Assembly (NCBI RefSeq): GCF_024172085.1
Contig: NZ_JAMZDZ010000001.1
Location: 6,758,001-6,822,000 of the forward strand
DNA: 64,000 nt
DNA from: Hamadaea flava
GTDB lineage: Bacteria; Actinomycetota; Actinomycetes; Mycobacteriales; Micromonosporaceae
Reading direction: 5' to 3'
Shown here: positions 1,614 through 63,513 of the stretch, one piece after another
Layout of the letters: every line of letters begins with the position of its first letter
Numbering within the stretch: position 1 is the first letter of the stretch
Made by a program: the position numbers and the translations under genes
Notes under the pieces: generated by a model
Told to the model about the DNA's origin: nothing
The model's input: only the letters and a program-made list of their open reading frames with translations
Database searches by the model: none

Positions 1614-1652
1614 AAAGCCCCGTCGATCATGAACCAACGGTCATGATCACTA
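1614..1652 (-). repeat. GATC-rich intergenic repeat, partial inverted copy
   Basis: Read on the minus strand, this contains GATCATGACCGTTGGTTCATG followed by ATCGACGGGG in interrupted similarity to the right half of the dispersed repeat seen at 6143, 33538, 45682, 51816, 51945 and 63424. It points toward the plus-strand copy at 1734-1815, about 100 bases away. Confidence 0.75.
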
Positions 1653-1733
1653 GCGTTTTTACAGGTCACGGGCCCAGTTTCGCCATGATCGTTCCCCGAA
1701 CCACGTGATCGCTCCGTCCGCGCCACCGTCGGA

Positions 1734-1815
1734 GTTGATCAGGCTCTTCGGGGAACGACCAGGGAGCTACGGACACGACACGCCGGTCGATCACGCACAC
1801 AAGTTCATGATCAAC
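1734..1815 (+). repeat. GATC-rich intergenic repeat, copy 1
   Basis: The core at 1771-1813 carries GGACACGACACGCC, then a GTCGATCACGC block and AGTTCATGATC, matching the family consensus. This copy has CACACA where most copies have the second hairpin arm CGACCG. It lies between the convergent ends of the MFS and DUF2461 genes. A separate inverted repeat, GTTCCCCGAA (1690-1699) and TTCGGGGAAC (1748-1757), brackets its left side. Confidence 0.85.
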
Positions 1816-1867
1816 GGGGCGGGGAGCGGGAGGCGAGCGGAGCGGAGCGAGCAAGGGGGAGGGGTGG

Positions 1868-2521
1868 TCACCGGCGGGGTGGCATGGTGAACTCGCCGAC
1901 GTAGGTCGCCACCCACTCCACCAACGGGGCCAGGGCGTGCCAGTCCGCGCGTACGACCGCAGCCGCAGCGGCGGTGTGCAGCGACGGTGAGGGTTCGTGG
2001 TGGCGGCGGGCGACCAGGGATTCGTGTCGCATGAGCGCGAGTCGCGGGTGGTCGGCGGCCACCCCGCGGGGCCGCGTTTTGACTTGGTCGCCGGAAAGCT
2101 CGAAGCCGTTGTCCACAAGGGACGTGACGAGCTTGGCGAGCTGGGGTCCGGTGGCGGGGGAGTCGACGGCGGCCCGGTAGCGCGCGGTCTGCTCGCGAGT
2201 GTGGGCGTGGAAGCCGGCACCGGTGGTGAGTCCGTCGGCGTCGAGCTGCACGTAGTACCCGACACCGTCGAGGATCTCGCAGAACGCCCCTTGATGCGTC
2301 TTGTAGGGCGACTTGTCCGCGGAGAAGCGCACGTCCCGATACGGCCGGAACACCTTCGGCTCACCCCACGAGTCGCCCAGTTCGGCGATCAGCGCCAGCA
2401 TCGGCGTCTTGATCGCGCGCTCGTAGACGTCCTTGTGCTCGGTCCAGTAGGTCTTCGAGTTGTCCGCGAGGAGTCCCTCGTAGAAGATCAGCGCCTCGTC
2501 CGGAAACCCGTCGAACCCCAT
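1868..2521 (-). CDS. DUF2461 domain-containing protein
   Basis: A 217-residue soluble protein that matches the DUF2461 (TIGR02453) family along its length. It opens with F-P-x-E-A-x-x-F-Y-E-x-L-x-x-N-N-S-K-x-Y-W and carries the RFSADKSPYKTHQGAF block near residue 70, both family hallmarks. The biochemical role of this family is unknown. The ATG start is supported by a TAGGCT box six bases upstream, which suggests a leaderless mRNA. The stop codon of the Clp-N gene upstream lies inside that promoter box, so transcription of the two genes is likely separate. Confidence 0.9.
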   Translation of the reverse strand: MGFDGFPDEALIFYEGLLADNSKTYWTEHKDVYERAIKTPMLALIAELGDSWGEPKVFRPYRDVRFSADKSPYKTHQGAFCEILDGVGYYVQLDADGLTTGAGFHAHTREQTARYRAAVDSPATGPQLAKLVTSLVDNGFELSGDQVKTRPRGVAADHPRLALMRHESLVARRHHEPSPSLHTAAAAAVVRADWHALAPLVEWVATYVGEFTMPPRR

Positions 2522-2527
2522 ACGGGC

Positions 2528-2533
2528 AGCCTA
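2528..2533 (-). promoter_or_regulatory. Leaderless -10 box of the DUF2461 gene
   Basis: TAGGCT on the minus strand, six bases before the ATG at 2521. The spacing puts the transcription start at or next to the start codon. It overlaps the stop codon of the upstream Clp-N gene. Confidence 0.6.
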
Positions 2534-3044
2534 GAGCGCGGCGTCGACCTCGTCGCGCAGGGCCTCCGGGTCGATGCGTGCCCACCGTAGGACGTCCACC
2601 GCCGGTCCACCCTCGCGGATCAGCGCGAGCAGCAGGTGCCCGTCGCCGATGTGATCGTCCTTCCGCCGGATCGCCTCTCGCAGGCTCAGTTCCAGCACCT
2701 TCTTGCCCGCCGGCCCGAAGCCCACCCGTCCGCGTACCGGTCCCGGCTCGTCCAGCACGCCCGGCCCGAAGGTCGCCTCCAGCTTGTCGCGCACGGCCGC
2801 GAGGTCGATTCCGATGGCCTCGAGCGCCTGCGCGTCCAGGCCATTCCGTCGAATCATCTCGTACGCCGAAAGCCGGGTGAGCCCATGCCGGGCGAGGATG
2901 CGCCGCGCGACGCCGTCGGGGGAGTCGAGGAGGCCGAGCAGGAGATGCTCCGGCCCGACCCCGGTCCGCCCCGAGCTGGCGAGCGGCCTCCTGGGCGTGC
3001 ACGACGGCCTGCCGGGCGTCGGTGTGGAACCTCTGGAACGGCAT
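2531..3044 (-). pseudogene. Clp N-terminal domain protein, frameshifted
   Basis: The product would be about 170 residues with two Clp-N (ClpA/ClpC N-terminal) repeats, a substrate or adaptor-binding fold without any ATPase. It starts MPFQRFHTDARQAVVHAQEA after a good AGGAGAAG site. The matching continuation VGPEHLLLGLLDSP and the second repeat DDHIGDGHLLLALIREGG lie in another frame. A run of four G (plus-strand CCCC at 2959-2962) is one base too long; with three G the reading is continuous (ADR-VGPEHLLLG). The rest has no stop and good coding character. Either the sequence has a one-base error or the gene is recently broken. It is coupled to the HTH gene upstream, whose stop lies three bases before this start. 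Confidence 0.75.
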
Positions 3045-3047
3045 CGC

Positions 3048-3296
3048 CTACTTCTCCTTTCCGAACAGTCCGCGGCCGGCGCCGAACTTCTTGTGCACCG
3101 CCTGCCGGGTGACCCCGAGCTGGACGGCGATCTCCTGCCAGGTCCAGCCGAGGTTGCGGGCGTGCCGCACCTGGACGGCTTCGAGTCGCTCGGCCAGCTC
3201 ACGCAGGGCGCGTACGGCGCGGAGGCCGACGGCCGGATCGGTGCTGCTCGCCGCGGCGGTCAGCCGTTCGGTGGCGGCGCGATCGGTCTCGCTCAT
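3048..3296 (-). CDS. Helix-turn-helix protein, partner of Clp-N protein
   Basis: An 82-residue protein. Its C-terminal half, ELAERLEAVQVRHARNLG then WTWQEIAVQLGVTRQAVHKK, is a clear helix-turn-helix of the type found in small actinobacterial regulators paired with Clp-N domain proteins. The start at ATG 3296 is preferred to an upstream in-frame start, because that extension reads through an operator-like palindrome. Three bases separate it from the Clp-N gene, so both are probably one transcript. A perfect 7-base dyad sits at the start codon and suggests autoregulation. Target genes are unknown. Confidence 0.85.
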   Translation of the reverse strand: MSETDRAATERLTAAASSTDPAVGLRAVRALRELAERLEAVQVRHARNLGWTWQEIAVQLGVTRQAVHKKFGAGRGLFGKEK

Positions 3297-3298
3297 GC

Positions 3299-3316
3299 TG
3301 TCAACTCTAGTTGACA
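3299..3316 (-). promoter_or_regulatory. Palindromic operator candidate at HTH gene start
   Basis: TGTCAAC-TCTA-GTTGACA is a perfect 7-base dyad with a 4-base centre, immediately upstream of the HTH gene ATG (3294-3296). A regulator bound here would block initiation, so the adjacent HTH protein is the natural candidate. Binding has not been shown. Confidence 0.65.
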
Positions 3317-3324
3317 CGACGGGC

Positions 3325-3358
3325 GAAAACAAAGCCCGCACTCGGGCGGGCTTCGTTT
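3325..3358. terminator. Bidirectional terminator
   Basis: AAGCCCGC and GCGGGCTT form an 8-base stem. A T-rich run follows on the minus strand (TTTGTTTT), and a weaker one follows on the plus strand. It lies after the DUF3043 gene on the minus strand and ahead of the HTH operator. Confidence 0.7.
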
Positions 3359-3374
3359 CGTGTCAGACCGCTGT

Positions 3375-4004
3375 TCAGATGGCTTCGCCGAACTTCTTCC
3401 GGGCCTGCGGCATCCGCAGCCGCCGGAAGGTGATCGCGCGCATGAACGCGTAGAAGTAAAGGGACCGCATCGAGACGCTCGGCTTCGGGAACCGCTCGCG
3501 GACGAGGCGGCTCACCTTGCGGCAGATCAGTACGGTGTCGACCAGCGTCGCGAAGGCGATCGCGAACCAGATGAGCTGGGCGTACATGACGAAGGTCGGG
3601 TTGCCGGTGCCGGTGCCGAGCAGCACCACGAAGGCGCTGCCGAAGAACCACGTGCCGATCGTCCGACGGGTGTCGACGATGTCGCGGACCAGCTTGCGCT
3701 CCGGGCCCTTGTCCCGGGGCATCAGGTAGCGCTCCTCGCCCGCCTTCATGCCGGCCATCGCCTCGGCCCGCTCGCCGCGCTGCTTGTCCTTCATGCGCCG
3801 GTACGCCTCGCGCTTGTTGGCGGGCGGCGGTTCCGCCTTGCGGCGGCCGTCGGTGCGCTTCGGGGTGGCCTTGCCCTTGCTCGGCGTGTACGCCTTCGAG
3901 CTCGCCTCCTCCGAAGTCTCCTCAGCGGTCTCGGGAGCAGCGGTCACCGAGGTGACCGAGTCCTCGACGAGGTCGGCGGATTTGCGGCGGAAGAGCGTAG
4001 ACAC
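3375..4004 (-). CDS. DUF3043 domain-containing membrane protein
   Basis: A 209-residue protein. The first 100 residues are hydrophilic and rich in Lys, Glu and Ala, and include KREAYRRMKDKQRGERAEAM. Two membrane helices follow at about 120-140 and 145-165, then a basic tail. This layout and the RDIVDTRRTIGTWFFG stretch fit actinobacterial DUF3043. Its function is not known to me. The GTG start at 4004 follows a TACTCT box by six bases, the spacing of a leaderless mRNA. A terminator lies just after the gene. It is downstream of murA on the same strand but has its own promoter. Confidence 0.85.
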   Translation of the reverse strand: MSTLFRRKSADLVEDSVTSVTAAPETAEETSEEASSKAYTPSKGKATPKRTDGRRKAEPPPANKREAYRRMKDKQRGERAEAMAGMKAGEERYLMPRDKGPERKLVRDIVDTRRTIGTWFFGSAFVVLLGTGTGNPTFVMYAQLIWFAIAFATLVDTVLICRKVSRLVRERFPKPSVSMRSLYFYAFMRAITFRRLRMPQARKKFGEAI

Positions 4005-4010
4005 GCGACA

Positions 4011-4016
4011 AGAGTA
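4011..4016 (-). promoter_or_regulatory. Leaderless -10 box of the DUF3043 gene
   Basis: TACTCT on the minus strand, six bases before the GTG start at 4004. Confidence 0.55.
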
Positions 4017-4047
4017 GCTGACCGAAACCGTACTTACCCGCCGCCCG

Positions 4048-5403
4048 TCATGCCGCCTGGGTCACGGGCCGCTCGGTCCGCGCGCCGAGGCCGGCGAGCT
4101 TCGCCTCGAAGTCCTCGTAGCCGCGGTTGATCAGGTCGACGCCGTGGACCCGGGAGGTGCCCTCGGCGGCGAGCGCGGCGATCAGGTGGCTGAACCCGGC
4201 CCGCAGGTCGGGGATGACGAGGTCGTGGGCGTGCAGCTTGGCCGGGCCCGCGATGACCGCCGAGTGACGGAAGCCACGGCGGCCGAAGCGGCAGTCCGCG
4301 CCGCCGAGGCACTCGGCGTACACCTGGATCGTGGCGCCCATCTGGTTGAGCGCGTGGGTGTAGCCGAACCGGTTCTCGTAGACCGTCTCGTGCACCACCG
4401 ACAGGCCGTTGGCCTGGGTGAGCGCCACCACCAGGGGCTGCTGCCAGTCGGTCATGAACCCGGGGTGGACGTCGGTCTCGATGACCACCGGTCGCAGGTC
4501 GCCGCCCGGGTGCCAGAACCGGATGCCGCCGCCCACCGGGTCGTCGTCGACCTCGTAGCTGCCGCCGATGGACCGGAAGACGTTGAGGTAGGTCATCATG
4601 TCGGCCTGCCGGGCGCCACGGACGAAGATGTCGCCCTTGGTCGCCAGCGCGGCCGAGGCCCAGCTGGCCGCCTCGATGCGGTCCGGGATCGGCCGGTGGG
4701 TGAACCCGGTCAGCCGGGACACGCCCTCGATCTCGATCACGCGGTTGGTGTGCACCTTGATGATCGCGCCCATCTTCTGCAGCACACAGATGAGGTCGAC
4801 GATCTCGGGCTCGACGGCGGCGTTGGCCAGCTCGGTCACGCCTTCGGCGAGGACGGCGGTGAGCAGGATCTGCTCGGTCGCACCGACCGACGGGTAGTCG
4901 AGGGTGAACTTGATCCCGTGCAGCCCGTTCGGGGCGGACAGGTGCAGCCCTTCGGGCGTCTTGTCGACGATCGCGCCGAACTGCCGCAGCGCTTCGAGGT
5001 GGAAGTCGATCGGGCGCGGGCCGATGTGGCAGCCGCCCAGGTCGGGGATGAAGGCGTGGCCGAGCCGGTGCAGCAGCGGGCCGCACAGCAGGATCGGGAT
5101 GCGGCTCGACCCGGCGTGCACGTTGATCTCGTCGATGCCGGCCCGCTCGACGTTCGAGGGGTCGAAGATCAGCTCGCCGTCGAGCTCGCCGTCGGTGACG
5201 CGTACGCCGTGCAGCTCCAGCAGGCCCCGGACGATCTCGACGTCGCGGATGCGGGGGACGTCGAACATGCGGCTGGGGGTATGCCCGAGGACCGCGGCCA
5301 CCATCGCCTTGGAAACGAGGTTCTTCGCGCCCCGGACCCGGACTTCGCCGGTCAGGGGAGTGCCACCGGTCACGACGAGTACGTCAGACAACACGACCTC
5401 CAT
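4048..5403 (-). CDS. murA: UDP-N-acetylglucosamine 1-carboxyvinyltransferase
   Basis: A 451-residue cytosolic enzyme that transfers enolpyruvate from PEP to UDP-GlcNAc, the first committed step of peptidoglycan synthesis. It has the EPSP-synthase fold with the substrate-binding motif VRGAKNLVSKAM near residue 25. The catalytic Cys lies in the GGCHIGPRPIDFH loop near residue 125; a Cys here predicts normal fosfomycin sensitivity. The ATG at 5403 places the fold start MEVVLSDVLVVTGG where expected. The frame is open further upstream, but that part has no family similarity. A good -35/-10 pair lies 37-65 bases upstream. The sequence follows the divergent actinobacterial type (NLVSKAM rather than NAALP). 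Confidence 0.93.
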   Translation of the reverse strand: MEVVLSDVLVVTGGTPLTGEVRVRGAKNLVSKAMVAAVLGHTPSRMFDVPRIRDVEIVRGLLELHGVRVTDGELDGELIFDPSNVERAGIDEINVHAGSSRIPILLCGPLLHRLGHAFIPDLGGCHIGPRPIDFHLEALRQFGAIVDKTPEGLHLSAPNGLHGIKFTLDYPSVGATEQILLTAVLAEGVTELANAAVEPEIVDLICVLQKMGAIIKVHTNRVIEIEGVSRLTGFTHRPIPDRIEAASWASAALATKGDIFVRGARQADMMTYLNVFRSIGGSYEVDDDPVGGGIRFWHPGGDLRPVVIETDVHPGFMTDWQQPLVVALTQANGLSVVHETVYENRFGYTHALNQMGATIQVYAECLGGADCRFGRRGFRHSAVIAGPAKLHAHDLVIPDLRAGFSHLIAALAAEGTSRVHGVDLINRGYEDFEAKLAGLGARTERPVTQAA

Positions 5404-5439
5404 GGGCGCGAAGAGTTGGGCGGGCGTACGAACCGCCGA

Positions 5440-5468
5440 AGCATACTCCCGGAATCGGTCTGCGTCAG
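5440..5468 (-). promoter_or_regulatory. murA promoter
   Basis: On the minus strand, CTGACG (-35, plus coordinates 5463-5468) and TATGCT (-10, 5440-5445) are separated by exactly 17 bases. This gives a 5' leader of about 30 bases before the murA ATG at 5403. It is the best housekeeping-type promoter I can see in the window. Confidence 0.6.
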
Positions 5469-5777
5469 AGGAGTCACGCTGATTCGGGAATAGCCGGAAT
5501 CGCTGGTCACGCACCGGAACTACATTGTTGCGCGCCGTGTCCTTTTCGGGCTTCTCCCGGGTCCTTTTGGTCCAGAGTGGACCTTGGTACTCCTCGATGT
5601 GGTGACGCCTCGGAGTCGGGCGATTACCGCAGTTCAGATGGCACCTGCAAAACATTGACGAGTGGCTTTCCGAGACCAACGATGTCCCCTGCGTGCGCAG
5701 TCGGAATCGCGCGATCCGCCTGATTTCTATTGAGGACAGGCGGCGAGCGCGACGTCTCCCCAAGGCAGGAGAAGACC

Positions 5778-6314
5778 GTGCGACGCAGACGAAGCCGCGC
5801 CCGATCATCCCGGCGCCTGATCATCGTCGGAGTGACCGTCGCCCTGCTCCTCGGCATCGTGCAGGTCGGGTACTCGATCGCCGACGCCCGCAAGCACAAC
5901 CGGCCCAGCAGCATCGAGTCGTTCCTGTGCCGCTTCGAGGTGCACGCGCTCGACGGCGCGGGCGACAACAAGTCCCACCCGCGGCTCGAATGGCTGCGGG
6001 AGGGCGAGGTCGACGGCGACCTGAAAAACAACAGCGCGAAAATGCTGCTGCCCGACGGGTACCTGCCGCGCCGCGACGCTCATGGCGACTCGGCGACCGC
6101 TCCGCCGATGACCCTCGACGGGCGCCGACCCCGCCGACCCCCGTTGATCATGGAGTTCCGGTCCCGACACACCGGTCGATCACGACCGTTAGTTCATGAT
6201 CGACGGGGAGGGGCGGGGGGTGGGCGGCGGGGGGAGGGTGGTGGGTTTAGGGGAGGGCGAGCATTTGGTCTAGGGCGACCCGGGCGTTGTGGGCCGTCTC
6301 AGGGTCGACCGTGA
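5778..6314 (+). CDS. Hypothetical single-pass membrane protein
   Basis: I do not recognise this protein. The GTG at 5778 is preferred over an in-frame TTG at 5730, because AGGAG stands eight bases before it and the product then begins with an Arg-rich cytoplasmic stretch (RRRRSRARSSRR). One membrane helix follows (LIIVGVTVALLLGIVQVGY). The body carries FLCRFEVHALDG and PRLEWLREGEVDGDL. From about residue 118 the frame runs into a copy of the dispersed GATC repeat and ends 65 bases inside the convergent nadA gene. The last 60 residues are low-complexity Gly/Arg, so the natural C-terminus was probably shorter. Confidence 0.6.
   Translation: MRRRRSRARSSRRLIIVGVTVALLLGIVQVGYSIADARKHNRPSSIESFLCRFEVHALDGAGDNKSHPRLEWLREGEVDGDLKNNSAKMLLPDGYLPRRDAHGDSATAPPMTLDGRRPRRPPLIMEFRSRHTGRSRPLVHDRRGGAGGGRRGEGGGFRGGRAFGLGRPGRCGPSQGRP
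6143..6204 (+). repeat. GATC-rich intergenic repeat, copy 2
   Basis: It contains CGACACAC, the hairpin CGGTCG-ATCA-CGACCG and AGTTCATGATC, with a GTTGATCATGG left arm. It sits between the hypothetical membrane protein and nadA, and the former reads through it. Confidence 0.85.
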
Positions 6315-14614: not shown

Positions 14615-15783
14615 AGGCCGGTCACCCCCGCCTCCTCGCGCAGCCGGGCGATGATCTCCGGCAGCTCGGCCAGAAAGTGGCGTACCTGCTCCTCGGTCAC
14701 GTCCCGATGCAAGGAGACGCGGACGTTGCCGTGGGACAGGGCGCCCATCGCGACCAGGACGTGGCTCGGCTCCAGCGTCGAGGAGGTGCACGAGGAGCCC
14801 GAGGAGACGGCGTAGCCCCGGCGGTCCAGCTCGCGCAGCAACGACTCGCCGTCGACATAGAGACAGGAGAAGGTGACCAGGTGCGGCGCCCGGTCGACGG
14901 GATCGCCGACCACTTCGACGTCCGGAATCGTCGCCGCGACCCGATCGCGGATGTGATCCACCAGCTTGCTCAGCCGCGCCGACTCCGCGGCCGCCTCGCT
15001 CCACGCGGCTCGCAGCGCGGCGGCGGCCGCCACGATCGCCGGAAGGTCGGGCGCACCCGGCCCGTGTCCGGCCGCCCGCTCCGGCTGCGACCAGTGCGCG
15101 CTCAGCGGCGGGTCGAACCGCGTACCGGTGCGGACGGCGAGCACACCGACCCCGGGTGGTCCGCCCCACTTGCGGGCACTCGCGGTCAGCATCGACCACC
15201 CGGTCGGCAGCGGCATCCGGCCCGCGATCACCGCCGCGTCGACCAGCAGCGGTACGCCGTGAGCAGCGCAAACTTCGGCAGCTCGATCGACCGGTTGCAG
15301 CGTGCCGACCTCATGACTGGCGGCGATGAGTGCGGCCAACGCCACACCATCGGCGCCGACCGCTGCCTGCCAGGCTTGCTCGTCGAGCCGGCCCATCCCG
15401 TCCACGGGGACGGAGACAGCCGTGCCACCAGCGGAAACGTGGTCCTCCCCGGCGTGCAGAACAGCCGAGTGCTCGATCGCCGAATGCACGAAGACCCGCC
15501 CCGACCGCCGCCGCCCGGCCAGTCCACCCAGGACGGCGAGGTGCGCTGCGGCCGTCCCGCCGGCGGTGAAGGTCAGCTCCGCTGGGCGTACCCCTAGAAC
15601 TTCAGCGGTCGCGCCGCGCGCCGCGTCGAGCAGCCCGCGGGCCCGGCGGGCCTGCGTGTAGAGCCGTGACGGGTCCGCCCAGCCGTCCGCGAGCGACGCG
15701 ATCATCGCCTCACGCGCGGCCGGATGCAGGGGAGACGCCGTCGCGGCATCGAAGTACGCGCCCTGCCTTGCCTGCTCAGACAT
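14611..15783 (-). CDS. Cysteine desulfurase (NifS/IscS-like)
   Basis: A 390-residue PLP-dependent fold-type I enzyme that removes sulfur from cysteine as a persulfide. AIEHSAVL near residue 103 stacks on PLP, SARKWGGPPGVG near 208 holds the PLP Lys, and SSGSSCTS near 325 holds the catalytic Cys. Two features differ from IscS: the usual D-A-x-Q before the PLP Lys reads DAAVIAG, and S-G-H-K reads SARK. The fold and key Lys/Cys remain, so activity is likely. It is coupled to TusA and is divergent from ctaC, 136 bases away. Confidence 0.9.
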   Translation of the reverse strand: MSEQARQGAYFDAATASPLHPAAREAMIASLADGWADPSRLYTQARRARGLLDAARGATAEVLGVRPAELTFTAGGTAAAHLAVLGGLAGRRRSGRVFVHSAIEHSAVLHAGEDHVSAGGTAVSVPVDGMGRLDEQAWQAAVGADGVALAALIAASHEVGTLQPVDRAAEVCAAHGVPLLVDAAVIAGRMPLPTGWSMLTASARKWGGPPGVGVLAVRTGTRFDPPLSAHWSQPERAAGHGPGAPDLPAIVAAAAALRAAWSEAAAESARLSKLVDHIRDRVAATIPDVEVVGDPVDRAPHLVTFSCLYVDGESLLRELDRRGYAVSSGSSCTSSTLEPSHVLVAMGALSHGNVRVSLHRDVTEEQVRHFLAELPEIIARLREEAGVTGL

Positions 15784-17304: not shown

Positions 17305-17427
17305 GCATTATGCGGCGCTTCTCGTGCGCTGCCGTGGGGTGCTTCATGACCGGCTTCATGATCAGGGGAAGTTTCGCGTTGCTATAGCACCGTGGAATTG
17401 ACCCTGATCATGTAACCGCCGAGCGGA

Positions 17428-33517: not shown

Positions 33518-33537
33518 TCTCGGGTGCCCTGCGGCCC

Positions 33538-33617
33538 GTTGATCATGGTGCTAGGGGAGTGATCAGGGTGCTGCGGACACGCCACGCCGGTTGATCACGA
33601 CCATTAGTTCATGATCG
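33538..33617 (+). repeat. GATC-rich intergenic repeat, copy 3
   Basis: It carries GATCAGGGTGCTGCGGACAC, GCCACGCC, a hairpin CGGTTG-ATCA-CGACCA with one G-T wobble, and AGTTCATGATC. Unlike most copies, it lies between divergent genes (SDR and M48), so it cannot act only as a 3' end element. Confidence 0.85.
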
Positions 33618-33805
33618 GGCGGGACGGGCGGGTCCCGCGGGACGGGCGGGTCCCGCGCGGGACGGGCGGGTCCCGCGCGGGACGGGCGGGTCCCGCGCGA
33701 CGGGCGGGATAGGCGGGACGGGCGGGTCGCGCGGGACGGGCGGGTCGCGCGGGACGGGCGGGTCGCGCGGGACGGGCGGGACAGGCGGGACGGGCGGGGG
33801 CGGGG
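33618..33805 (+). repeat. G-rich tandem repeat (18-20 bp units)
   Basis: About four units of GGGACGGGCGGGTCCCGCGC (20 bases) are followed by about four units of GGGACGGGCGGGTCGCGC (18 bases) and degenerate remains. The two unit types differ by CCC versus CG in the middle. The run ends directly before the TAGGGT box of the M48 gene. Both strands can form hairpins (GGGTCCC), and the plus strand has many G-runs. Confidence 0.85.
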
Positions 33806-33813
33806 TGGGGAGA

Positions 33814-33819
33814 TAGGGT
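33814..33819 (+). promoter_or_regulatory. Leaderless -10 box of M48 protease gene
   Basis: TAGGGT, five bases before ATG 33825, at the end of the G-rich repeat. Confidence 0.6.
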
Positions 33820-35118: not shown

Positions 35119-35181
35119 CTGCAGATCACGGTTACGCAGGCTTCCCGGGCACATGATCACATGGATATCCCTGATCTGCAC
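35119..35181. repeat. TGCAGATCA/TGATCTGCA palindromic element
   Basis: TGCAGATCA at the left end and TATCCCTGATCTGCA at the right end repeat the ends of the perfect palindrome at 12786-12846, with a similar GCAGGCTTCCCGGG centre. The element here is imperfect. It lies between the M48 and mannosyltransferase genes. Confidence 0.6.
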
Positions 35182-44614: not shown

Positions 44615-45283
44615 ATGGCCGTCGATCTGCGCGTGGTCGCGTACAACATCCATTCGTCCCGGGACGATCGGGACGCGCTGGCCGCCGTCGTGCGCGGGCT
44701 GGAACCGGATGTCCTGATCATGCAGGAGGGACCGCGGCGCTTTCGCTGGCGCACGAAGGCCGCGGCGTTGGCGAGTTCGTTCGGGCTGGTGATGGTGGCG
44801 GGCGGCCAGCCCGCGCTCGGCAACGTCATCCTCACCAGCCTCCGCGTACGCCGCCGCGACTCGTGGGAGATCCGGTTCCCGCTGAAACCGGGGCGGCACA
44901 TGCGTGGGGCGGCGTTCGCGCGCTGCGAGGTGGGCGGGGTGAGCTTCACCCTCGCCGGCTCGCATCTGTCCACTGACGACGAAGAGCGGCCGTCGCAGGC
45001 GGCGCTGTTGCGCGACGCCGTCGCCACGATCGACGGGCCGGTCATCCTGGGGGCCGACCTCAACGACGTGCCGGGCTCGCCCAGTTGGGACCTGGCCCAT
45101 CAAGATCTGGTGGACGTCGGCGTGGAGGGCGGCGACACGTTCTCCTGCGCGGCACCGAACCGGCGGATCGACACCGTCGCGGTCAGCCCGTCGATCGGCG
45201 TGAAGTCCTACCGGGTGGAACGGGGAGCGCTGACGCTGCGGGCCTCCGACCACTTTCCGCTCGTCGCCGACCTTGTCCTGTGA
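44615..45283 (+). CDS. Endonuclease/exonuclease/phosphatase family protein
   Basis: A 222-residue metal-dependent phosphoesterase fold. The family motifs are all present: VVAYNIHSSRDDRDAL at the N-terminus, a Glu in IMQEGPRR, the SHLS His near residue 110, GADLNDVPGSPSW near 148 and the catalytic pair in ASDHFPLVADL at the C-terminus. The substrate could be DNA, a phospholipid or an inositol phosphate. No signal peptide is visible. A 626-base non-coding stretch follows. Confidence 0.88.
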   Translation: MAVDLRVVAYNIHSSRDDRDALAAVVRGLEPDVLIMQEGPRRFRWRTKAAALASSFGLVMVAGGQPALGNVILTSLRVRRRDSWEIRFPLKPGRHMRGAAFARCEVGGVSFTLAGSHLSTDDEERPSQAALLRDAVATIDGPVILGADLNDVPGSPSWDLAHQDLVDVGVEGGDTFSCAAPNRRIDTVAVSPSIGVKSYRVERGALTLRASDHFPLVADLVL

Positions 45284-45366: not shown

Positions 45367-45525
45367 GATCGTCGGCTGCCGCCGTTCTTCGCGGTTCGCG
45401 CCTGCATGATCGTCGGCTGCCGACGACCAAACCGCTATTTCGCCGCTGATCGTCGGCGGCCGACGATCATGCAGGGCGGGCCGACGATCATCCGGGGTCG
45501 CCGACGATCTCGGTCACCGACGATC
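45367..45525. repeat. Array of seven GATCGTCGG sites
   Basis: GATCGTCGG occurs at 45367, 45408 and 45448 on the plus strand. Its reverse complement CCGACGATC occurs at 45460, 45481, 45501 and 45517. Forward copies are 41 and 40 bases apart; reverse copies are 21, 20 and 16 apart. The two sets meet in a near-perfect palindrome at 45448-45468. The spacings are close to whole helical turns, so sites would lie on one face. No gene overlaps it. Function unknown. Confidence 0.75.
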
Positions 45526-45681: not shown

Positions 45682-45812
45682 AGTTGATCAGGCCGGCTGG
45701 GTGGGGGAAGTTGATCAGGCCGTTGCGGAGTCGATCAGGGTGCTGGGGAGTCGATCAGGGTGCCGCGGACACGACACGCCGGTCGATCACGACCGATAGT
45801 TCATGATCGCGC
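45682..45812 (+). repeat. GATC-rich intergenic repeat, copy 4, with duplicated left arm
   Basis: The full element at 45750-45812 has GTCGATCAGGGTGC, GGACACGACACGCC, a perfect hairpin CGGTCG-ATCA-CGACCG and AGTTCATGATC. The left arm is duplicated: GTTGATCAGGCCG appears twice, then GTCGATCAGGGTG twice. It is followed by GCGCGGAAAGGGACGG repeats up to the promoter of the next gene. Confidence 0.85.
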
Positions 45813-45897
45813 GGAAAGGGACGGCGCGGAAAGGGACGGCGCGGAAGGGACGGGGCGGGGACGGGGCGGAGTGGGAACGGAGAAGGAGCGGGGCCGA

Positions 45898-51006: not shown

Positions 51007-51791
51007 CCGTCTCGGTGCTGCGGCTCAAGGAGTGGGCCCACCCGGTCGCCCCGGTACGCCGGGAGGTGCTCAGCGCCACCCCGGAACTCGACGAGGGCCG
51101 GCCGCCGGTGCTGTTCGTGCCCGGATTCGGCCACGGCGCCTGGGCGTACGCCGAGCACTGGCTGGAACACACGGCGTCGCGCGGCTTCCCGGCGTACGCC
51201 GTGAGCCCGCGCGGGCACGGGGCGAGCGAAGCGGCCCCGAAGGCCGACCTCCGGGCGTACGCCCACGACGTCGTGCAGGTCGCGGCCAGTCTGCCCCGCA
51301 AAGCGGTCCTCGCCGGGCACGGCGCCGGGGCGCTCGTCGTCACGCACGCGCTGGCCCGGTACCCCGCCCGAGCGGCGGTCCTGCTCTCGCCGGTGCTGGG
51401 CGGTGTCTCCACCGCGCTGCGCAACCCCGGGCTGGTGCTGCCCGCCCTGTTCGGCGGGGGACTGCGGCTGCCCGCCGGTCAGCTGTTCAGCCGGGAACTC
51501 CCCGTCGCCGCCGCCCGCGCCTACGCCAAGCGCCTCGGCCGCGCCAGTACGCGCGCGCAATGGCAGCTGCTGCGCGGCGTCACCCCGGAACGCGCCGTCG
51601 GCGACCCGCCCGTGCTGGTCGTGGGCAGCCCCGACGACAAGATCGTCTCACCGTCCGCGTTGAAGGACGCCGCCCGGGCGTACGGGGGAGCGCCGCTGCT
51701 GTTCCCGGGCATGGGCCACGACCTGATGCTGGACGCCCGCTGGCGCGAACCGATCGACGCCACCCTCGACTGGCTCGAAAAATCCCACTAA
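51003..51791 (+). CDS. Alpha/beta hydrolase-fold protein lacking the nucleophile Ser
   Basis: A 262-residue alpha/beta hydrolase. The oxyanion region VLFVPGFGHGAWAYAEHW near residue 36, the acid Asp in VGSPDDKIVS near 208 and the base His in GMGHDLML near 240 are normal. The nucleophile elbow reads LAGHGAGALVV where GHSxG is expected, so the catalytic Ser is Gly. It may therefore be a non-hydrolytic ligand-binding protein, or use another mechanism. It overlaps the monooxygenase stop by four bases, so the pair is co-translated. Confidence 0.87.
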   Translation: MTVSVLRLKEWAHPVAPVRREVLSATPELDEGRPPVLFVPGFGHGAWAYAEHWLEHTASRGFPAYAVSPRGHGASEAAPKADLRAYAHDVVQVAASLPRKAVLAGHGAGALVVTHALARYPARAAVLLSPVLGGVSTALRNPGLVLPALFGGGLRLPAGQLFSRELPVAAARAYAKRLGRASTRAQWQLLRGVTPERAVGDPPVLVVGSPDDKIVSPSALKDAARAYGGAPLLFPGMGHDLMLDARWREPIDATLDWLEKSH

Positions 51792-51793
51792 CT

Positions 51794-51825
51794 CGTTCTT
51801 TCCGCGTGCTCGTTCTTTCCGCGTG
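51794..51825 (+). repeat. Short direct repeat CGTTCTTTCCGCGTG
   Basis: CGTTCTTTCCGCGTG occurs twice, about 17 bases apart, right after the hydrolase stop. Its reverse complement matches the GCGGAAAG tail of the GATC repeat family. Confidence 0.6.
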
Positions 51826-51893
51826 ATCATGAACTAACGGTCGTGATCGACCGGTGTGTCGTGTTCGTGGCACCCTGATCGACTCCCTAGCGC
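51816..51893 (-). repeat. GATC-rich intergenic repeat, copy 5a (inverted)
   Basis: Read on the minus strand: GTCGATCAGGGTGCC, ACGACACACC, hairpin CGGTCG-ATCA-CGACCG, AGTTCATGATC and CGCGGAAAG. It is a complete element facing copy 5b with about 50 bases between them. Confidence 0.85.
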
Positions 51894-51944
51894 TCTGATC
51901 GACTCGAACGCGGTGGGTGCCGTAGGTGATCATGCCCGCCGGGG

Positions 51945-52005
51945 AGTGATCAGGGTCTGGTGGACACGACACACCGGTCGATCACGCACATAAGTTCATG
52001 ATCAC
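51945..52005 (+). repeat. GATC-rich intergenic repeat, copy 5b
   Basis: It carries GTGATCAGGGTCTGG, GGACACGACACACC, GGTCGATCACGCACATAAG and TTCATGATCACGCGGAAAGG. Like copy 1, it has CACATA in place of the second hairpin arm. With copy 5a it forms a large inverted pair between convergent genes. Confidence 0.85.
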
Positions 52006-52073
52006 GCGGAAAGGGGCGCGAGCGGAGCGAGCACGGGGCGGCGCGAGCGGAGCGAGCGGGCGCGGGGCGAGCG

Positions 52074-52592
52074 TCAGACGACGGCGCCGTCGTCGGGGAG
52101 GTCGGGTTCATCGGGGCCGCCCGGCCGGAGCCGCATGATCAGCAGCGCTGCCCCGCCGATGATGCCGAGCAGGCCGAGCACCATCCCGGACTGGTCGCCG
52201 AGCGGCAGGAGGCCGGGTTTGAAGAACAGCAGCACTCCGCCGATGATCGCGATGACCCCGATGATCGCCTGCGCGGAGATGCGCGGCAGTGGGGGCGGCG
52301 GTGGCGGGACGAAGGGTTCTTCGTCGTCTGGGAGGTCGGCGCCGAATGTGTCGAGCCCGTCGAGCAGGGAGGGCTCGGGCTGGTTCAGGATCGGCCCGTT
52401 GGCCGGGAACAGTGGTCCGGTGGGTCCGGCCGGAGCGGCCGGGGCCGGCTCGGCTGGGGTGGCGGGGGTGAGGTCTTCACTCTCCGGCCAGGTCACTTCG
52501 GCGGGCGCGGCGTCGTAACTCGCGACAATCTGCGCAAAAGCGGCATCCACCTGATCCGAGGAGCGCCCGTCAGGGTCGCCGACCACAGACAT
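52074..52592 (-). CDS. Hypothetical membrane protein with Pro-rich cytoplasmic domain
   Basis: A 172-residue protein. The first 95 residues are acidic and rich in Pro and Ala, ending in a run of about seven Pro (EPFVPPPPPPLP). Two membrane helices follow (about 105-122 and 133-152), then an acidic tail PDEPDLPDDGAVV. ATG 52592 is chosen over ATG 52616 because AGGGAGG lies five bases upstream. The function is unknown. It is divergent from the acyltransferase gene; from memory, a hypothetical membrane protein also accompanies Rv2182c. Confidence 0.75.
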   Translation of the reverse strand: MSVVGDPDGRSSDQVDAAFAQIVASYDAAPAEVTWPESEDLTPATPAEPAPAAPAGPTGPLFPANGPILNQPEPSLLDGLDTFGADLPDDEEPFVPPPPPPLPRISAQAIIGVIAIIGGVLLFFKPGLLPLGDQSGMVLGLLGIIGGAALLIMRLRPGGPDEPDLPDDGAVV

Positions 52593-58224: not shown

Positions 58225-58292
58225 TGCCGGTCTTTCCCCTCGGGCCACACCGATCCGGTGCGACCGCCCTCCCAGATCATCGTCTGCCGACC

Positions 58293-58307: not shown

Positions 58308-58445
58308 CCAGGTGGCGGTCATGCATGCCACTCCCGGGTTATCGTCGGTGATGGATCTGCGGTGAGAGTGCCATAATCCGGCCCATGCGCGTACGCACGC
58401 GGTGCGACAACGCCCGCACGAAGCGCGACGGCCAAGGAATCCCCC

Positions 58446-59333: not shown

Positions 59334-59342
59334 GACTTCGCG

Positions 59343-60191
59343 CTACGCCTTCTCACGCAGATGCGCCAGGACCAGCGGATCGATCCGGCCCGGGATCATG
59401 CGCTCCTCCAGGTTCTCGATCCCGGCCCAGTCCGCCAGCGCGACGTCGAGGTCGGCGTCGGTGTGGCCGCGATCGGCCAGCAGCGCGCGTACCTCCTCGG
59501 CCAGCTCGCCGGACAGGTCCAGCAGCGAGTCCGGGTCGGCCTTCTCGAACAGCAGCGCGTGGAGGTCGAGCAGCCGGGCCAGCTCGCCACAGGGATCGGG
59601 ATGGTCGTCCACCCGCAGATCGACCGCGACATCACTGGTGCCGCCGTAACCGGCGCCCGGGGCGACGACGTAAACCGCCGCGCTCTGCCGGCCCCGGCGG
59701 TCGCCGCCCGCGGCGTCCCCCGCGCTCAGTGCGCGCACCAGCCGCCGGGCCAGCGCCATCGCCGAGTCGCCCGGCGTACCGTGATCGCTCGCGAGGAAGG
59801 CGTCCCGCATCGCGTCGACGACTTCCGGTCCGGTGAGGATGTTCCCCTGGACGGCGTACCCGTCGCCCGCGACGCCGCCCGCCCACTCGTGACACCCCGA
59901 GCCGGTGTAGGTCGCGCCCTCGCCGAACTTGCCGACCACGCCCAGCTGCCGTTGGTCCCGGCCCGGGTCGGCAGCCGTCAATCCGGCCACGACCTCCGCC
60001 GCCGCCACCTGCGTACCCAGTAGTGTGAGCCCCTGCGGGCGGTAGGCCAGGTTCGCGTAGGACTGGGTGGCGAGCGCGCCGACCCCGGCCTGAGCGGCCG
60101 GGACGACCGCCCCCGCGGCCAGGAACTTGCTGGCCACCGCGACACCGTGGGCCAGCCCGTCGCTGGAGCGCGCAACGATCGAGAAGGTCAT
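59343..60191 (-). CDS. DUF1028 domain-containing protein
   Basis: A 282-residue protein of the DUF1028 family, which has an Ntn-hydrolase-like fold. It opens TFSIVARSSDGLAHGVAVAS, then GVGALATQSYANLAYRPQGL, which matches the family closely. VQGNILTGPEVVDAM and SAAVYVVAPGAGYGG follow. A C-terminal extension (residues 220-282) is helical and acidic. The reaction is unknown; peptidoglycan or acyl-peptide hydrolysis has been proposed for such folds. Its start is 21 bases from the divergent RNase AS start. Confidence 0.9.
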   Translation of the reverse strand: MTFSIVARSSDGLAHGVAVASKFLAAGAVVPAAQAGVGALATQSYANLAYRPQGLTLLGTQVAAAEVVAGLTAADPGRDQRQLGVVGKFGEGATYTGSGCHEWAGGVAGDGYAVQGNILTGPEVVDAMRDAFLASDHGTPGDSAMALARRLVRALSAGDAAGGDRRGRQSAAVYVVAPGAGYGGTSDVAVDLRVDDHPDPCGELARLLDLHALLFEKADPDSLLDLSGELAEEVRALLADRGHTDADLDVALADWAGIENLEERMIPGRIDPLVLAHLREKA

Positions 60192-60212
60192 GCCGGAACA
60201 GTAAGGGGACTC

Positions 60213-60728
60213 ATGCCGTACCGCTACTTCTACGACTGTGAGTTCATCGAGGACGGGGTCACCATCGACCTCGTCTCGATCGGTGTCGTGGACGAGCACG
60301 GCCGCGAGTTCTACGCGATCTCCAGCCAGTTCGACCCGACCAAGGCGATCCCCTGGGTACGCAAGAACGTGCTCGACAAGCTGCCGTCACCGGGCAACCC
60401 GGCGTGGCGGTCCCGCGAACGGCTCCGGGACGACCTCCTGGCGTTCCTGACCGAGCCGCTGCGGACCGACCCGGACGGCGAACTCGAACTGTGGGCCTGG
60501 TACGCCGCCTACGATCATGTCGCGCTCGCCCAGCTTTGGGGCAACATGCAGGCTTTGCCGAGGATCATCCCGCGATTCACCAAGGATCTGCGTCAGCTGT
60601 GGGACGACGCCGGCCGCCCGCCACTGCCCTCGGCCGAAGCCGCCCGGCACGACGCGTTGGTCGACGCCCGCCACAACCTCGCACGGTGGCAGGCCATGAC
60701 AGGTTTCCGGCAAGTTACCGGAAAGTAG
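60213..60728 (+). CDS. 3'-5' exoribonuclease (RNase AS type)
   Basis: A 171-residue DEDDh nuclease equivalent to M. tuberculosis Rv2179c (RNase AS), which degrades adenylate-containing RNA tails. The metal residues are the Asp/Glu in FYDCEFIEDG at the N-terminus, an Asp in WYAAYDHVALAQLWG near residue 108, and the His/Asp in RHDALVDARHNL near 150. The ATG 60213 gives the family start MPYRYFYDCEF. Confidence 0.92.
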   Translation: MPYRYFYDCEFIEDGVTIDLVSIGVVDEHGREFYAISSQFDPTKAIPWVRKNVLDKLPSPGNPAWRSRERLRDDLLAFLTEPLRTDPDGELELWAWYAAYDHVALAQLWGNMQALPRIIPRFTKDLRQLWDDAGRPPLPSAEAARHDALVDARHNLARWQAMTGFRQVTGK

Positions 60729-60878
60729 CCACCAGTTCGCCCGGGGCGAGTGGAAACAGCCCAGCTAGGGGCGATACAGTGCGCAATTGCGGCCCGCCCC
60801 GGGCCGGCAGCGTCGCCGATCATGTTGCTCTGGGGCTCCACCACGGGCTTGGTATATGCACCCTCGAAAGGGATCGAG

Positions 60879-61904
60879 ATGCGTATCGGTGTTCTCACCG
60901 GCGGGGGCGACTGCCCCGGTCTCAATGCAGTCATCCGCGCGGTCGTCCGCAAGGGTGTGGGAACCTACGGGCACGAGTTCGTCGGGTTCAAGGACGGCTG
61001 GAAGGGTCCGCTGGAGGGCCTGACCAAGCCGCTCGGCGTCCAGGAGGTGCGCGGCATCCTCCCGCGAGGCGGCACCATCCTCGGCTCGTCCCGGACCAAC
61101 CCGTTCAAGATCGAGGGCGGCGTCGAGCAGATCAAGAAGAACCTCGCCGAGATGGGTGTGGACGCGCTCATCGCGATCGGCGGCGAAGACACCCTCGGGG
61201 TCGCGACGAAGCTCCACGAACTCGGCGTCCAGGTGGTCGGCGTACCGAAGACCATCGACAACGACCTCGGCGCCACCGACTACACGTTCGGCTTCGACAC
61301 CGCCGTCAACATCGCGATGGAGGCGATCGACCGGCTCCACACGACGGCCGAATCCCACCACCGCACAGTCGTGGTCGAGGTCATGGGCCGCCACGCCGGC
61401 TGGATCGCCCTGCACTCGGGCCTCGCCGGCGGCGCCAACGTCATCCTCATCCCCGAGCGGCCGTTCGACCTGGAAAAGGTCGTCGACCACGTGGAGAACC
61501 GGTTCCGGACCAACTACTCGCCGATCATCGTGGTCTCCGAAGGCGCGGTCCCGGCCGAAGGCGACATGATCACCCTCGGCGGCGAACTCGACGCGTTCGG
61601 CCACGTCCGCCTCGGCGGCATCGGCACCTGGCTCGCCGAGCAGATCGAGAAGCGTACGGGCAAGGAAGCGCGGGCGGTCGTGCTCGGCCACACCCAGCGC
61701 GGCGGAACGCCGACGGCGTTCGACCGGGTCCTCGCGACCCGCTTCGGGCTCCACGCGATCGACGCGGCGCACGAGGGGGACTGGGGCAAGATGGTCGGCC
61801 TCGCGGGCACGGACATCGTCCGGGTTCCGCTGATCGAGGCTACTCGGGAGCTCAAGACTGTTCCGGTGGAGAAGTACTCCGAGGCTGAGGTTCTGTTCGG
61901 CTGA
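60879..61904 (+). CDS. 6-phosphofructokinase with pyrophosphate-type residues
   Basis: A 341-residue glycolytic enzyme that phosphorylates fructose 6-phosphate. TGGGDCPGLNAVIRAVV near residue 10 binds the phosphoryl donor, and TIDND holds the catalytic Asp. The donor-specificity positions read GGEDT (Asp where ATP enzymes have Gly104) and PKTIDND (Lys where ATP enzymes have Gly124). In this family that pair marks pyrophosphate-dependent enzymes such as that of Amycolatopsis methanolica. It is therefore predicted to use PPi and be reversible. The ATG 60879 follows AAAGGGA; 150 bases of leader precede it. Confidence 0.92.
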   Translation: MRIGVLTGGGDCPGLNAVIRAVVRKGVGTYGHEFVGFKDGWKGPLEGLTKPLGVQEVRGILPRGGTILGSSRTNPFKIEGGVEQIKKNLAEMGVDALIAIGGEDTLGVATKLHELGVQVVGVPKTIDNDLGATDYTFGFDTAVNIAMEAIDRLHTTAESHHRTVVVEVMGRHAGWIALHSGLAGGANVILIPERPFDLEKVVDHVENRFRTNYSPIIVVSEGAVPAEGDMITLGGELDAFGHVRLGGIGTWLAEQIEKRTGKEARAVVLGHTQRGGTPTAFDRVLATRFGLHAIDAAHEGDWGKMVGLAGTDIVRVPLIEATRELKTVPVEKYSEAEVLFG

Positions 61905-61925
61905 GGTTTCGCTCGCTCGTGAAGG

Positions 61926-61989
61926 CGGGGGCGGAGTAACCCACTCCAGGCGGTCAGGCTTGATCCTTCCGTGGGTTACTCCGCCCCCG
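61926..61989 (+). terminator. Long inverted repeat after phosphofructokinase gene
   Basis: CGGGGGCGGAGTAACCCAC and its exact reverse complement form a 19-base stem around a 26-base loop. It lies 22 bases after the stop and probably ends the transcript. Confidence 0.75.
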
Positions 61990-62035
61990 TCGCGTTCGCC
62001 GTCGTGGGTGGTTGGGGCTAGTGGGGTTGGACGGG

Positions 62036-62848
62036 ATGGGTATGCACACCGTTGCCGTAGTGGGTGCGGGGAAGATCGGTGAGGTTCTGCTCTCCGGTCT
62101 GGTGAAGGCGGGCTGGCCCGTTGACCGTTTGATCGCCACAGCCCGGCGTCCGGAACGAGCCGACGAGCTTCGGTCTCGGTACGGCGTTCGAGTGCTGGAG
62201 AATGCGGAGGCGGTCGCCTCGGCTGACGTCGTCGCGATCGCGGTGAAGCCGCAGGACGCCGGCGCTCTGATGGCTGAGCTTGGGCCGCTCATGAGTTCGG
62301 ACAAGTTGCTCGTTTCGCTGTGTGCCGGCCTGCCCACGTCGTTCTTCGCGAAGTATCTCCGGGACGAGGTCCCCGTTGTTCGGGTCATGACGAACACGCC
62401 AGCGCTTGTCGATGAGGCTATGACGGCCATCTCGGCGGGGGCGCATGCGACTGCCGCGCATTTGTCGCTGGCGGAGGAGATGTTCAAGCCGCTGGGGCGG
62501 ACTATACGGTTGCCTGAGTCTCAGCAGGACGCGGTTACCGCGTTGAGCGGGTCGGGGCCGGCTTACTTCTACTTCCTGGTCGAGGCGATGACGGATGCCG
62601 GGATTCTGCTCGGGTTGCCGCGGCAGGTGGCGCACGATCTGATCGTGCAGACCGCCATCGGCTCGGCGGTGATGCTGCGGGACTCGGGGGAGCACCCCGT
62701 CAAGCTGCGCGAGGCGGTCACCTCGCCGGCCGGCACGACGATCTCCGCGATCCGTGAGCTGGAGAACCACGGCGTACGCGCGGCGCTGCTCGCCGCGCTG
62801 GAGGCGGCCCGGGACCGGGCGCGCGAACTCGCCGCACAGAACACCTGA
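62036..62848 (+). CDS. proC: Pyrroline-5-carboxylate reductase
   Basis: A 270-residue enzyme for the last step of proline synthesis. The NAD(P) motif VAVVGAGKIGEVLLSGLV is at the N-terminus, AVKPQDAGALM near residue 70 and VRVMTNTPALVDEAMTAI near 112. The family signature is ALSGSGPAYFYFLVEAMTDA near 160-180, and TSPAGTTISAIRELE ends it. The ATG 62036 or 62042 gives the normal start; the TTG at 62012 adds eight unrelated residues. The codon mix near the 5' end is less GC-rich than its neighbours (many TTG, CTT, GTT). Confidence 0.93.
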   Translation: MGMHTVAVVGAGKIGEVLLSGLVKAGWPVDRLIATARRPERADELRSRYGVRVLENAEAVASADVVAIAVKPQDAGALMAELGPLMSSDKLLVSLCAGLPTSFFAKYLRDEVPVVRVMTNTPALVDEAMTAISAGAHATAAHLSLAEEMFKPLGRTIRLPESQQDAVTALSGSGPAYFYFLVEAMTDAGILLGLPRQVAHDLIVQTAIGSAVMLRDSGEHPVKLREAVTSPAGTTISAIRELENHGVRAALLAALEAARDRARELAAQNT

Positions 62849-62969
62849 CAGCCCGTCACCCTTGCGTGGGTGGGATGCCCGGATTGCGTGAATGAATCCG
62901 GTTCAGCCTTCCGTCTCGGTCTTGCGCCGCCTTACCGTCGGTTCAGGTCCGAACACAGTGGAGGCGATC

Positions 62970-63341
62970 ATGCGTCGAGCAGTCATCTTCTCGGGCACGG
63001 TTCTCGCCGTACTCGCGGTATCTTCCCCCTCGTACGCGTTCGCTCACAACGCGGTGCGAAACCCGGTCTGGCACGCCGTTCTCGACGTCTTGACGCTCGC
63101 GGTGGTCAGCGCTCCACTGTGGACGGCGTACGCCTGGGGCGGCCGGCGGCGTGGCGCCCTCATGGCGTTGATCGGGCTCGTGCAACTCCCCGTCGCCGTG
63201 ATCGGGTTCGTCCCGATCGCCAACCCAGTCCTGCACACGGTCCTCTTCGGATTCGCGCTGACGGTGACCGTGGCAGCCATCGTCTCCGTCCGCCGGCTGT
63301 CGCGAGCCGGCCAGGAGACGCCCGTACGCGCCGGACACTGA
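62970..63341 (+). CDS. Small membrane protein with signal peptide
   Basis: A 123-residue protein of unknown function. ATG 62970 follows GGAGG and begins a signal-like helix MRRAVIFSGTVLAVLAVSS, ending SYAFA. Three further hydrophobic segments (about 40-60, 65-85 and 90-108) make it a small multi-pass protein. The last residues are basic. A GATC repeat begins about 80 bases after its stop. Confidence 0.75.
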   Translation: MRRAVIFSGTVLAVLAVSSPSYAFAHNAVRNPVWHAVLDVLTLAVVSAPLWTAYAWGGRRRGALMALIGLVQLPVAVIGFVPIANPVLHTVLFGFALTVTVAAIVSVRRLSRAGQETPVRAGH

Positions 63342-63423
63342 CCCGCACGGGGTCCGGCGCACCTTCCCGCTGTCGGCCGCGACTGTGTGAGGGGCAGTCG
63401 TGGTCGACGGCGGCCGGCTGCGT

Positions 63424-63513
63424 TGATCAGGGAGCCGCGGAGTCGATCAGGGCGCTGTGGACACGACACGCCGGTCGACAACGACCGAAGGTTCATGATC
63501 AACCGGAAAGGGT
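63424..63513 (+). repeat. GATC-rich intergenic repeat, copy 6
   Basis: It carries GTTGATCAGGG, GTCGATCAGGGCGC, GGACACGACACGCC, a hairpin CGGTCG-ACAA-CGACCG, GTTCATGATC and CCGGAAAGGG. The stem is intact although the loop changed from ATCA to ACAA. It encodes the last residues and stop codon of the minus-strand gene ending at 63447. Confidence 0.85.

Follow-up and report, generated by a model that had tools for sequence, protein, structure and literature searches.

What does a short GATC-rich sequence do between the genes of Hamadaea flava, and which of its features does selection keep? The question arises from a 64,000-nucleotide stretch of this genome (the window, G000:C1:6758001-6822000; the genome, G000, is a single contig of 8,864,410 bases), for which a preliminary description reported eight near-identical copies of a repeat and suggested that a hairpin within it is under selection. 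We find that DNA sequence and spacing are conserved, rather than hairpin pairing. The reading we favour, with a probability of roughly 0.4, is that the copies may be protein-bound DNA arrays that set the boundary of transcription where intrinsic terminators would otherwise do so.

A copy is present at each of the eight window coordinates given for it, as judged from the letters, repeat finding, alignment and profile hits; six lie on the plus strand and two (1619-1712 and 51815-51906) on the minus strand. The core, CGGTCGATCACGACCG, occurs 14 times at up to three mismatches against 3.95 expected, and 0/100 shuffles reach 14. The right end, TTCATGATC, is found 310 times genome-wide, compared with once for its reversed control, some of these occurrences sitting in coding sequence. 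A profile search of an evenly spaced sample of G000 (20 stretches of 20 kb, 400 kb in all) returned nine copies, which by scaling gives an estimate of about 200 per genome; the window, with 8 copies in 64 kb, is locally dense. The earlier claim, of a dispersed and abundant family outside genes whose copies each have several GATC sites, is borne out, and the further genomic copies it called for are many. A motif reported from several copies, CGGAAAGGG, is present in three (45682, 51945 and 63424). The statement that no named family has this sequence is not contradicted: Rfam gives 0 matches at the gathering cut-off within the window, and literature searches for the family or its relatives, limited to the library searched, returned nothing on point. 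The region from 1.5 to 2.0 Mb of the contig contains no copy among the 100 matches listed of 118 in a pattern search, and is almost copy-free in the listed sets.

The form of the element seen in this genus (g1) reads, from head to tail, GTYGATCA, nine variable positions, GG, four further positions, GATCAGG, a variable stretch, GGACACGACACGCCG, GTYGATCACGACC, three variable positions, AGTTCATGATC, CGCGGAAAG and a G-rich tail. Its four GATC boxes have a spacing of 20-32-20 bp in 49/63 G000 copies and in 23/37 copies from the sister genome G039; the remaining 14 G000 copies also fit this register, either lacking a box or carrying an additional, overlapping GATC. Despite the variable letters between them, an upstream GATC stands exactly at -20 from box 2 in 59/62 copies of G000 and 37/37 of G039. 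A two-box form, with TGATCA boxes 52 bp apart, is found in g1 alongside the four-box form, and the genera g17 and g20 carry a two-box form of ∼60 bp (for example GTTGATCATGAAGTT...ACACGCCGTCGA...AAGTTCATGATCAAC), whose terminal inverted repeats are better; these repeats are clear in g17 and in the two-box forms and decayed in the four-box form. In G000 the tail consists of 57% G and 6.5% T; its G content is 60% in g17 and 46% in g20. It is often built of tandem repeats of the element's own end, and in g1 it is G-rich in every gene context, also before start codons.

Is the six-pair hairpin what selection keeps? Within the window all six pairs are intact in the stems at 6143, 45682, 51816 and 63424. 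The last of these is the copy with a changed loop and an intact stem (CGGTCG-ACAA-CGACCG), which had been described as the sixth. A wobble attributed to the third copy is found in the fourth, the 33538 stem having one T-G wobble and one C-A mismatch and the 6143 stem being perfect. The stems at 1734 and 51945 end in CGCACA, with three of six pairs lost. Across 100 G000 copies, taken from the matches listed of 118 to a search pattern that itself fixed some positions, 31 stems are wholly Watson-Crick and 62 are fully paired once G-T counts as a pair on that strand; the T-A pair shows A to C in 12 of these 100 listed copies, none of them compensated. The same pair in 37 G039 copies is T-C in 14, C-C in 6, T-A in 5, compensated G-C in 4 and otherwise constituted in 8, so that a little compensation, though slight, exists in this genome. 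Consensus folds, computed on both strands for 61 copies from G000, 37 from G039, 28 from g17 and 14 from g20, have energies between -3 and -11 kcal/mol and a covariation term close to zero; the proposed stem is chosen in no group, and the self-complementary box ends pair in every one. Since the stem changes are mostly uncompensated and the stem is absent from the consensus folds, we conclude that the six-pair hairpin is not what selection keeps. The earlier suggestion mostly fails on the very point named as its weakness, variation without compensation, to which 4/37 copies in G039 form the slight counter-case.

Comparison of orthologous copies identifies the parts that are kept. Sixteen pairs, G000 against G039 or a second sister genome, G080, were matched by their flanks, with a profile score above 45 required on both sides. 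At these sites the letters that differ amount to 0% in GATCA boxes 1 and 2, 1% in AGTTCATGATC, 6% in the ACACGCCG block, 7.5% in box 3 and 13% in GGACACG; the spacer between boxes 1 and 2 differs at 44%, other inner stretches at 27-47%, and the aligned flanks, mostly coding, at 12.6%. As read from these alignments, the footprint appears to be that of protein sites on DNA.

The copies also keep their places. A synteny check of 21 profile hits left 12 with a usable counterpart in a sister species, and in 10/12 that counterpart holds the same element at the corresponding position, with its orientation unchanged; in the other 2/12 (window 6143 and 33536) it holds another TGATCA-ended palindrome. 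The nine excluded comprise five window copies and the hit at 14986 of locus L105, with no G039 or G080 counterpart in hand, together with 45708 (part of the fifth copy), 4629 of L106 (not delimitable) and 9699 of L106 (degenerate). Of 64 letters, orthologs differ at 10.1, random cross-species pairs at 12.0, pairs within G000 at 11.0 and pairs within G039 at 11.9, orthologous copies being closer than random cross-species pairs (p 0.0006). Local gene conversion between neighbours was considered and rejected, as copies within 3.5 kb of each other show no greater similarity (2.5 against 2.74 differences, p 0.27).

The exact core pattern, which diverged relatives would escape, was sought in 354 Micromonosporaceae genomes. 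It is present in 3/4 genomes of g1 (104, 79 and 73 copies; 0 in the fourth, G061), in 11/11 of g17 (11-69 copies) and in the 1/1 of g20 (49 copies). The core is thus abundant in 15/354 genomes, from three genera, with single hits in two others and none in 337; the reversed control gives 0 in all 354. Among 148 genomes of the class, the core matches only in G000.

This patchiness, with absence even from a genome of the same genus, would suit a non-autonomous mobile repeat resembling miniature inverted-repeat transposable elements (MITEs), with ends GTTGATCATGAA...TTCATGATCAAC, spread by a transposase acting in trans and settled at the convergent gaps where it does least harm, its copies now mostly fossils. 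The good terminal inverted repeats of the short g17 and g20 forms, the hundreds of copies, the extra tandem units and tails, and the fact that convergent gaps are natural safe sites all fit such an origin. A fossil, however, should not keep its boxes and spacing at shared sites where its spacers have drifted to 44%, and the traces of mobility are few: long-range pairs of element ends number only three in the 864 kb read, the flanks have no specific complementarity, and plasmid and phage records contain no match to the g1 core. We regard this origin as possible, though we doubt it. Two specific forms of mobility were also examined. A composite element was considered at L088 and L101, each with a pair of copies separated by 2.6 kb; at L088, the translations lying between the ends, judged by eye with no database search, have no recognisable transposase. 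Insertion into palindromic targets was rejected, since pairing the left flank of a copy with its own right flank gives no more complementarity than pairing flanks taken from different copies, and this holds in all four groups (p 0.20-0.81). Neither a cognate insertion sequence nor a target duplication was seen in the part of the genome read, and the intergenic flanks in sister genomes are too changed to align.

A more specific version of spread, implied by the preliminary description, is that the family consists of true repetitive extragenic palindromes (REPs), or the bacterial interspersed mosaic elements (BIMEs) that they form, moved by a REP-associated tyrosine transposase (RAYT). REPs and RAYTs are described in PMC2817692, which credits REPs with facilitating Rho-dependent termination and BIMEs with binding IHF and gyrase. 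Copy number, extragenic position, imperfect palindromy and the occurrence of inverted pairs with tails outwards all speak for this identity. The hairpin, on the other hand, is not conserved, and Y1_Tnp, the Pfam domain of RAYT-type transposases, has no match in G000, G039, G080 or the g20 genome. It occurs in 6/15 element-bearing genomes, all of g17; the RAYT-like gene whose search had been proposed is missing from the genome of the window itself. Among the ten flanking proteins searched against Pfam, the remark that no transposase lies near the copies is borne out. Spread by a RAYT is already mostly refuted, and we consider it extremely improbable.

The position of the copies relative to genes was counted for every hit, with the window and the evenly spaced stretches forming a sample of 17 copies. 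None of the 17 lies inside a called gene; 9 lie between convergent genes, 6 in codirectional gaps and 2 in divergent gaps. Convergent gaps account for 11% of the intergenic sequence, so that the copies are enriched there (p 3e-5, n=17), and the enrichment is also seen in the evenly spaced part alone, without the window (4/9 copies, p 0.013). Neighbouring copies within 3.5 kb have their tails outwards in 13/16 cases. A strict orientation to the gene was considered and rejected: 56/70 tails face a stop codon (three loci counted twice), yet the majority of the gaps are convergent, so that a copy has a stop ahead of its tail whichever way it points. The codirectional gaps, pooled over all genomes, have 42 tails towards a stop and 22 towards a start (p 0.017). 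Because most gaps are convergent and the informative count is 42 to 22, the orientation of tails towards stops is a bias only.

Enrichment between convergent genes, where transcription from both sides piles up supercoils, could also mark a site of chromosome topology or nucleoid organisation, bound by gyrase, condensin or a nucleoid protein. The helical phase of the box arrays would suit such a site, and a precedent is offered by E. coli, in which BIME-2 binds gyrase and BIME-1 binds IHF, as stated in PMC2817692. Alone, a topological role does not account for the scarcity of hairpins at adjacent gene ends set out below, and the copies have no clear strand preference along the chromosome (replichore) among the 100 matches listed of 118. 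We think this role distinctly unlikely.

The main argument for a transcription boundary comes from the gene ends themselves. For each end, the score was the energy of the most stable hairpin within 90 nt downstream of the stop, the T-run playing no part in it, and hairpins at or below -25 kcal/mol were taken as strong. A strong hairpin is found in G000 at 2/37 ends on the tail side of a copy and 7/34 on the head side, compared with 57/113 convergent ends away from copies (p 2e-7 and 4e-4, respectively); mid-gene controls have one in 10% of 150. Tail-side hairpins are also weaker in g17 (3/17 against 9/26, p 0.005) and in G039/G080 (p 0.004), yet in the latter the counts at the -25 mark are 1/24 and 1/12; head-side strength in G039/G080 gives p 0.054. 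G061, which is free of the family, has a strong hairpin at 15/28 convergent ends. The end of nadA is an example, with GATC-box-ended elements in three sister species and a terminator-like hairpin in G061. Because element and strong hairpin seldom coincide, on either side, we favour the transcription-boundary reading.

These ends are also unusual in composition. The stretch from stop to core, over 35 ends, is 54% C, 24% G and 3% A, and the C-skew is 0.41 at tail-side ends compared with 0.04 at other convergent ends (p 5e-13), a difference also seen in g17 and in G039/G080 (p at most 1e-4). A boundary made at the RNA level is one way to read this, the C-rich stretch being a Rho loading site and the core a pause site or an end-protecting structure. 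Consensus folds that lie below column shuffles are in keeping with it, as is the report that REPs facilitate Rho-dependent termination (PMC2817692). The head-side gene, however, which likewise tends to be without a hairpin, has no such skew (0.08), and the folds show no covariation. The idea of Rho loading is further weakened because the g1 tail is G-rich whatever it faces, including start codons, and so belongs to the element and not to a 3′ untranslated region. An end made in this way is very unlikely in our view.

The boundary that we favour would instead be made on double-stranded DNA, each copy being a recognition array rather than an RNA hairpin. We infer a putative sequence-specific protein, probably dimeric, that would recognise both the ACACGCCG block and the YGATCA boxes on either side of it at their 20-32-20 bp spacing. 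By binding several boxes, its units could line up along one face of the helix, 20 bp being about two turns and 52 bp about five. The bound array, sitting at the ends of transcription units and mostly between convergent genes, would stop or clear RNA polymerase arriving from either side, and adjacent gene ends could thereby do without intrinsic terminator hairpins. A bolder form of this proposal, which we think rather unlikely, is that a dedicated protein marks the ends of convergent units genome-wide through fixed-spacing GATC arrays, that this roadblock system has replaced intrinsic terminators at hundreds of ends in three genera of one family, and that array and protein change together between species.

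Several points weigh against the reading of the copies as transcription boundaries. It leaves the spread of the family, its concerted drift, the G-rich tail and the copies in divergent gaps unexplained. Divergent copies, where no terminator is needed, are 2/17 in the sample and 9/126 over all genomes where both neighbours are called, and the divergent site at window 33536 has a related element in G039 too. Nearly half of the 17-copy sample lies outside convergent gaps, only 7/27 convergent gaps hold a copy, and the gene calls behind these counts come from a simple script. The orthologous pairs were found by profile, so that lost or strongly changed copies are under-counted. Furthermore, species-specific letters recur, with A to C at the same position in 8/15 G000-G039 pairs, which suggests a homogenisation that plain selection for binding need not give. 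Because orthologs are nearer to each other than random pairs and these A to C changes are shared, the sites are old, yet the copies within one species drift together. Finally, the fold energies lie below those of column-shuffled alignments, with z from -0.9 to -5.0 (on the two strands, -1.6/-3.7 for G000, -1.6/-0.9 for G039, -3.6/-2.6 for g17 and -5.0/-3.3 for g20). This arises mainly through the self-complementary box ends, and the element may hold a weaker structure.

The window copies illustrate the range of forms. The first (1619..1712, minus strand) is degenerate, with a profile score of 37.6 bits, and its tail points to the stop of the gene ending at 1547. The full copy beside it (1731..1818, plus strand) has GATC at 1737, 1789 and 1809, GACC as box 2 and a stem broken by CGCACA, and its tail points to the stop of a DUF2461 gene at 1868. 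At 6143..6209 (plus strand) a short copy without box 1 has GATC at 6146, 6178 and 6198, and its tail points to the nadA stop (6247); at the same place in G039 (L085), the 3′ end of nadA has a 27-bp hairpin, perfect by eye, with GTTGATCATGAACCTAG ends and a different interior. The full copy at 33536..33624 (plus strand; GATC at 33541, 33561, 33593 and 33613, 20-32-20) lies in the divergent gap between an SDR gene and an M48 peptidase gene, as an exception to the location rule, and has a G-rich tandem-repeat tail (33616..33816, plus strand, repeat family D1). The full copy at 45730..45817 (plus strand; GATC at 45733, 45753, 45785 and 45805, 20-32-20) is preceded by extra box units on the same strand (45682..45749; GATC at 45686, 45713 and 45733) and followed by CGCGGAAAGGGACGG repeats. 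Two full copies form an inverted pair with tails outwards: 51815..51906 on the minus strand (GATC at 51825, 51845, 51877 and 51897), whose tail points to the stop of an alpha/beta-hydrolase gene at 51791, and 51922..52013 on the plus strand (GATC at 51928, 51948, 51980 and 52000; stem broken by CGCACA), whose tail points to a gene stop at 52074. The last full copy (63419..63509, plus strand) has GATC at 63425, 63445 and 63497, GACA as box 3, and the changed loop and intact stem noted above.

Other palindromes and arrays accompany the family. A second hairpin family, CATGATCAGCGGAAGTTTCGCGGTGCTATAGCACCGCGAAACTTCCGCTGATCATG-like, is seen at gene ends (window 17359-17411; 11818 of L031, 10382 of L036 and 15366 of L044), with TGATCA boxes 46 bp apart and, by eye, a long stem. 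A third, intergenic palindrome type, ATCACGGTTACGCAGG...CATGATCACATG...CCCTGATCTGCA, is found at window 35125-35175 and at 6760-6820 of L046. An array of CATGATCGTCGGCTGCCGACGATC-type units occupies window 45367-45525, after the gene ending at 45283, and is preceded by CTTTCCGCG repeats; a similar array is present in G039 (L114 and the start of L112). Convergent gaps of G061 contain an unrelated GATC-rich element of ∼300 bp (4361-4680 of L108, 15441-15760 of L110 and 11651-11970 of L111), which has six exact hits in that genome and none in the other 353 of the Micromonosporaceae. In stretches of G000, G039, G061 and G016, TGATCA occurs at 0.46-1.07 per kb in intergenic sequence outside the family, compared with 0.28-0.43 in genes and with an intergenic mean of 0.06-0.18 per kb for four other palindromes; the excess is seen in G061 too.

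The GATC-box family is a variant of the REP-like extragenic repeats. As with the REPs and BIMEs described in PMC2817692, the copies exceed 100 per genome, lie outside genes, form imperfect palindromes, are frequently paired in inverted orientation and are confined to particular lineages. It differs from them in that the G000 family has neither a RAYT gene nor a conserved, compensated stem, its conserved unit being a 60-90 bp fixed-spacing GATC array with a G-rich tail. The elements resemble MITEs such as Correia and RUP in being short, non-coding and patchy, with terminal inverted repeats in the short forms; unlike these, they stay put between species and their boxes are constrained. Their placement after stops, above all between convergent genes, is that of intrinsic terminators, but they fold weakly, and sequence and spacing are conserved in place of pairing. 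In E. coli, SeqA binds GATC clusters in which several sites are helically phased along one side of the duplex. The family described here shares that phase, although its box is longer (YGATCA), its spacing exact and its location at gene ends.

To our knowledge, the ends of genes in GC-rich actinobacteria are poorly understood. In cyanobacteria, canonical termination mechanisms account for a minority of operons, as the title of PMC13289151 states. Here a repeat with a clean evolutionary footprint seems to replace intrinsic terminators, is missing from a sister species, and has copies that change in step, so that transcription ends made by a protein become directly testable in bacteria. More broadly, our results suggest that what is constrained in an abundant REP-like family can be the DNA itself and not a hairpin.

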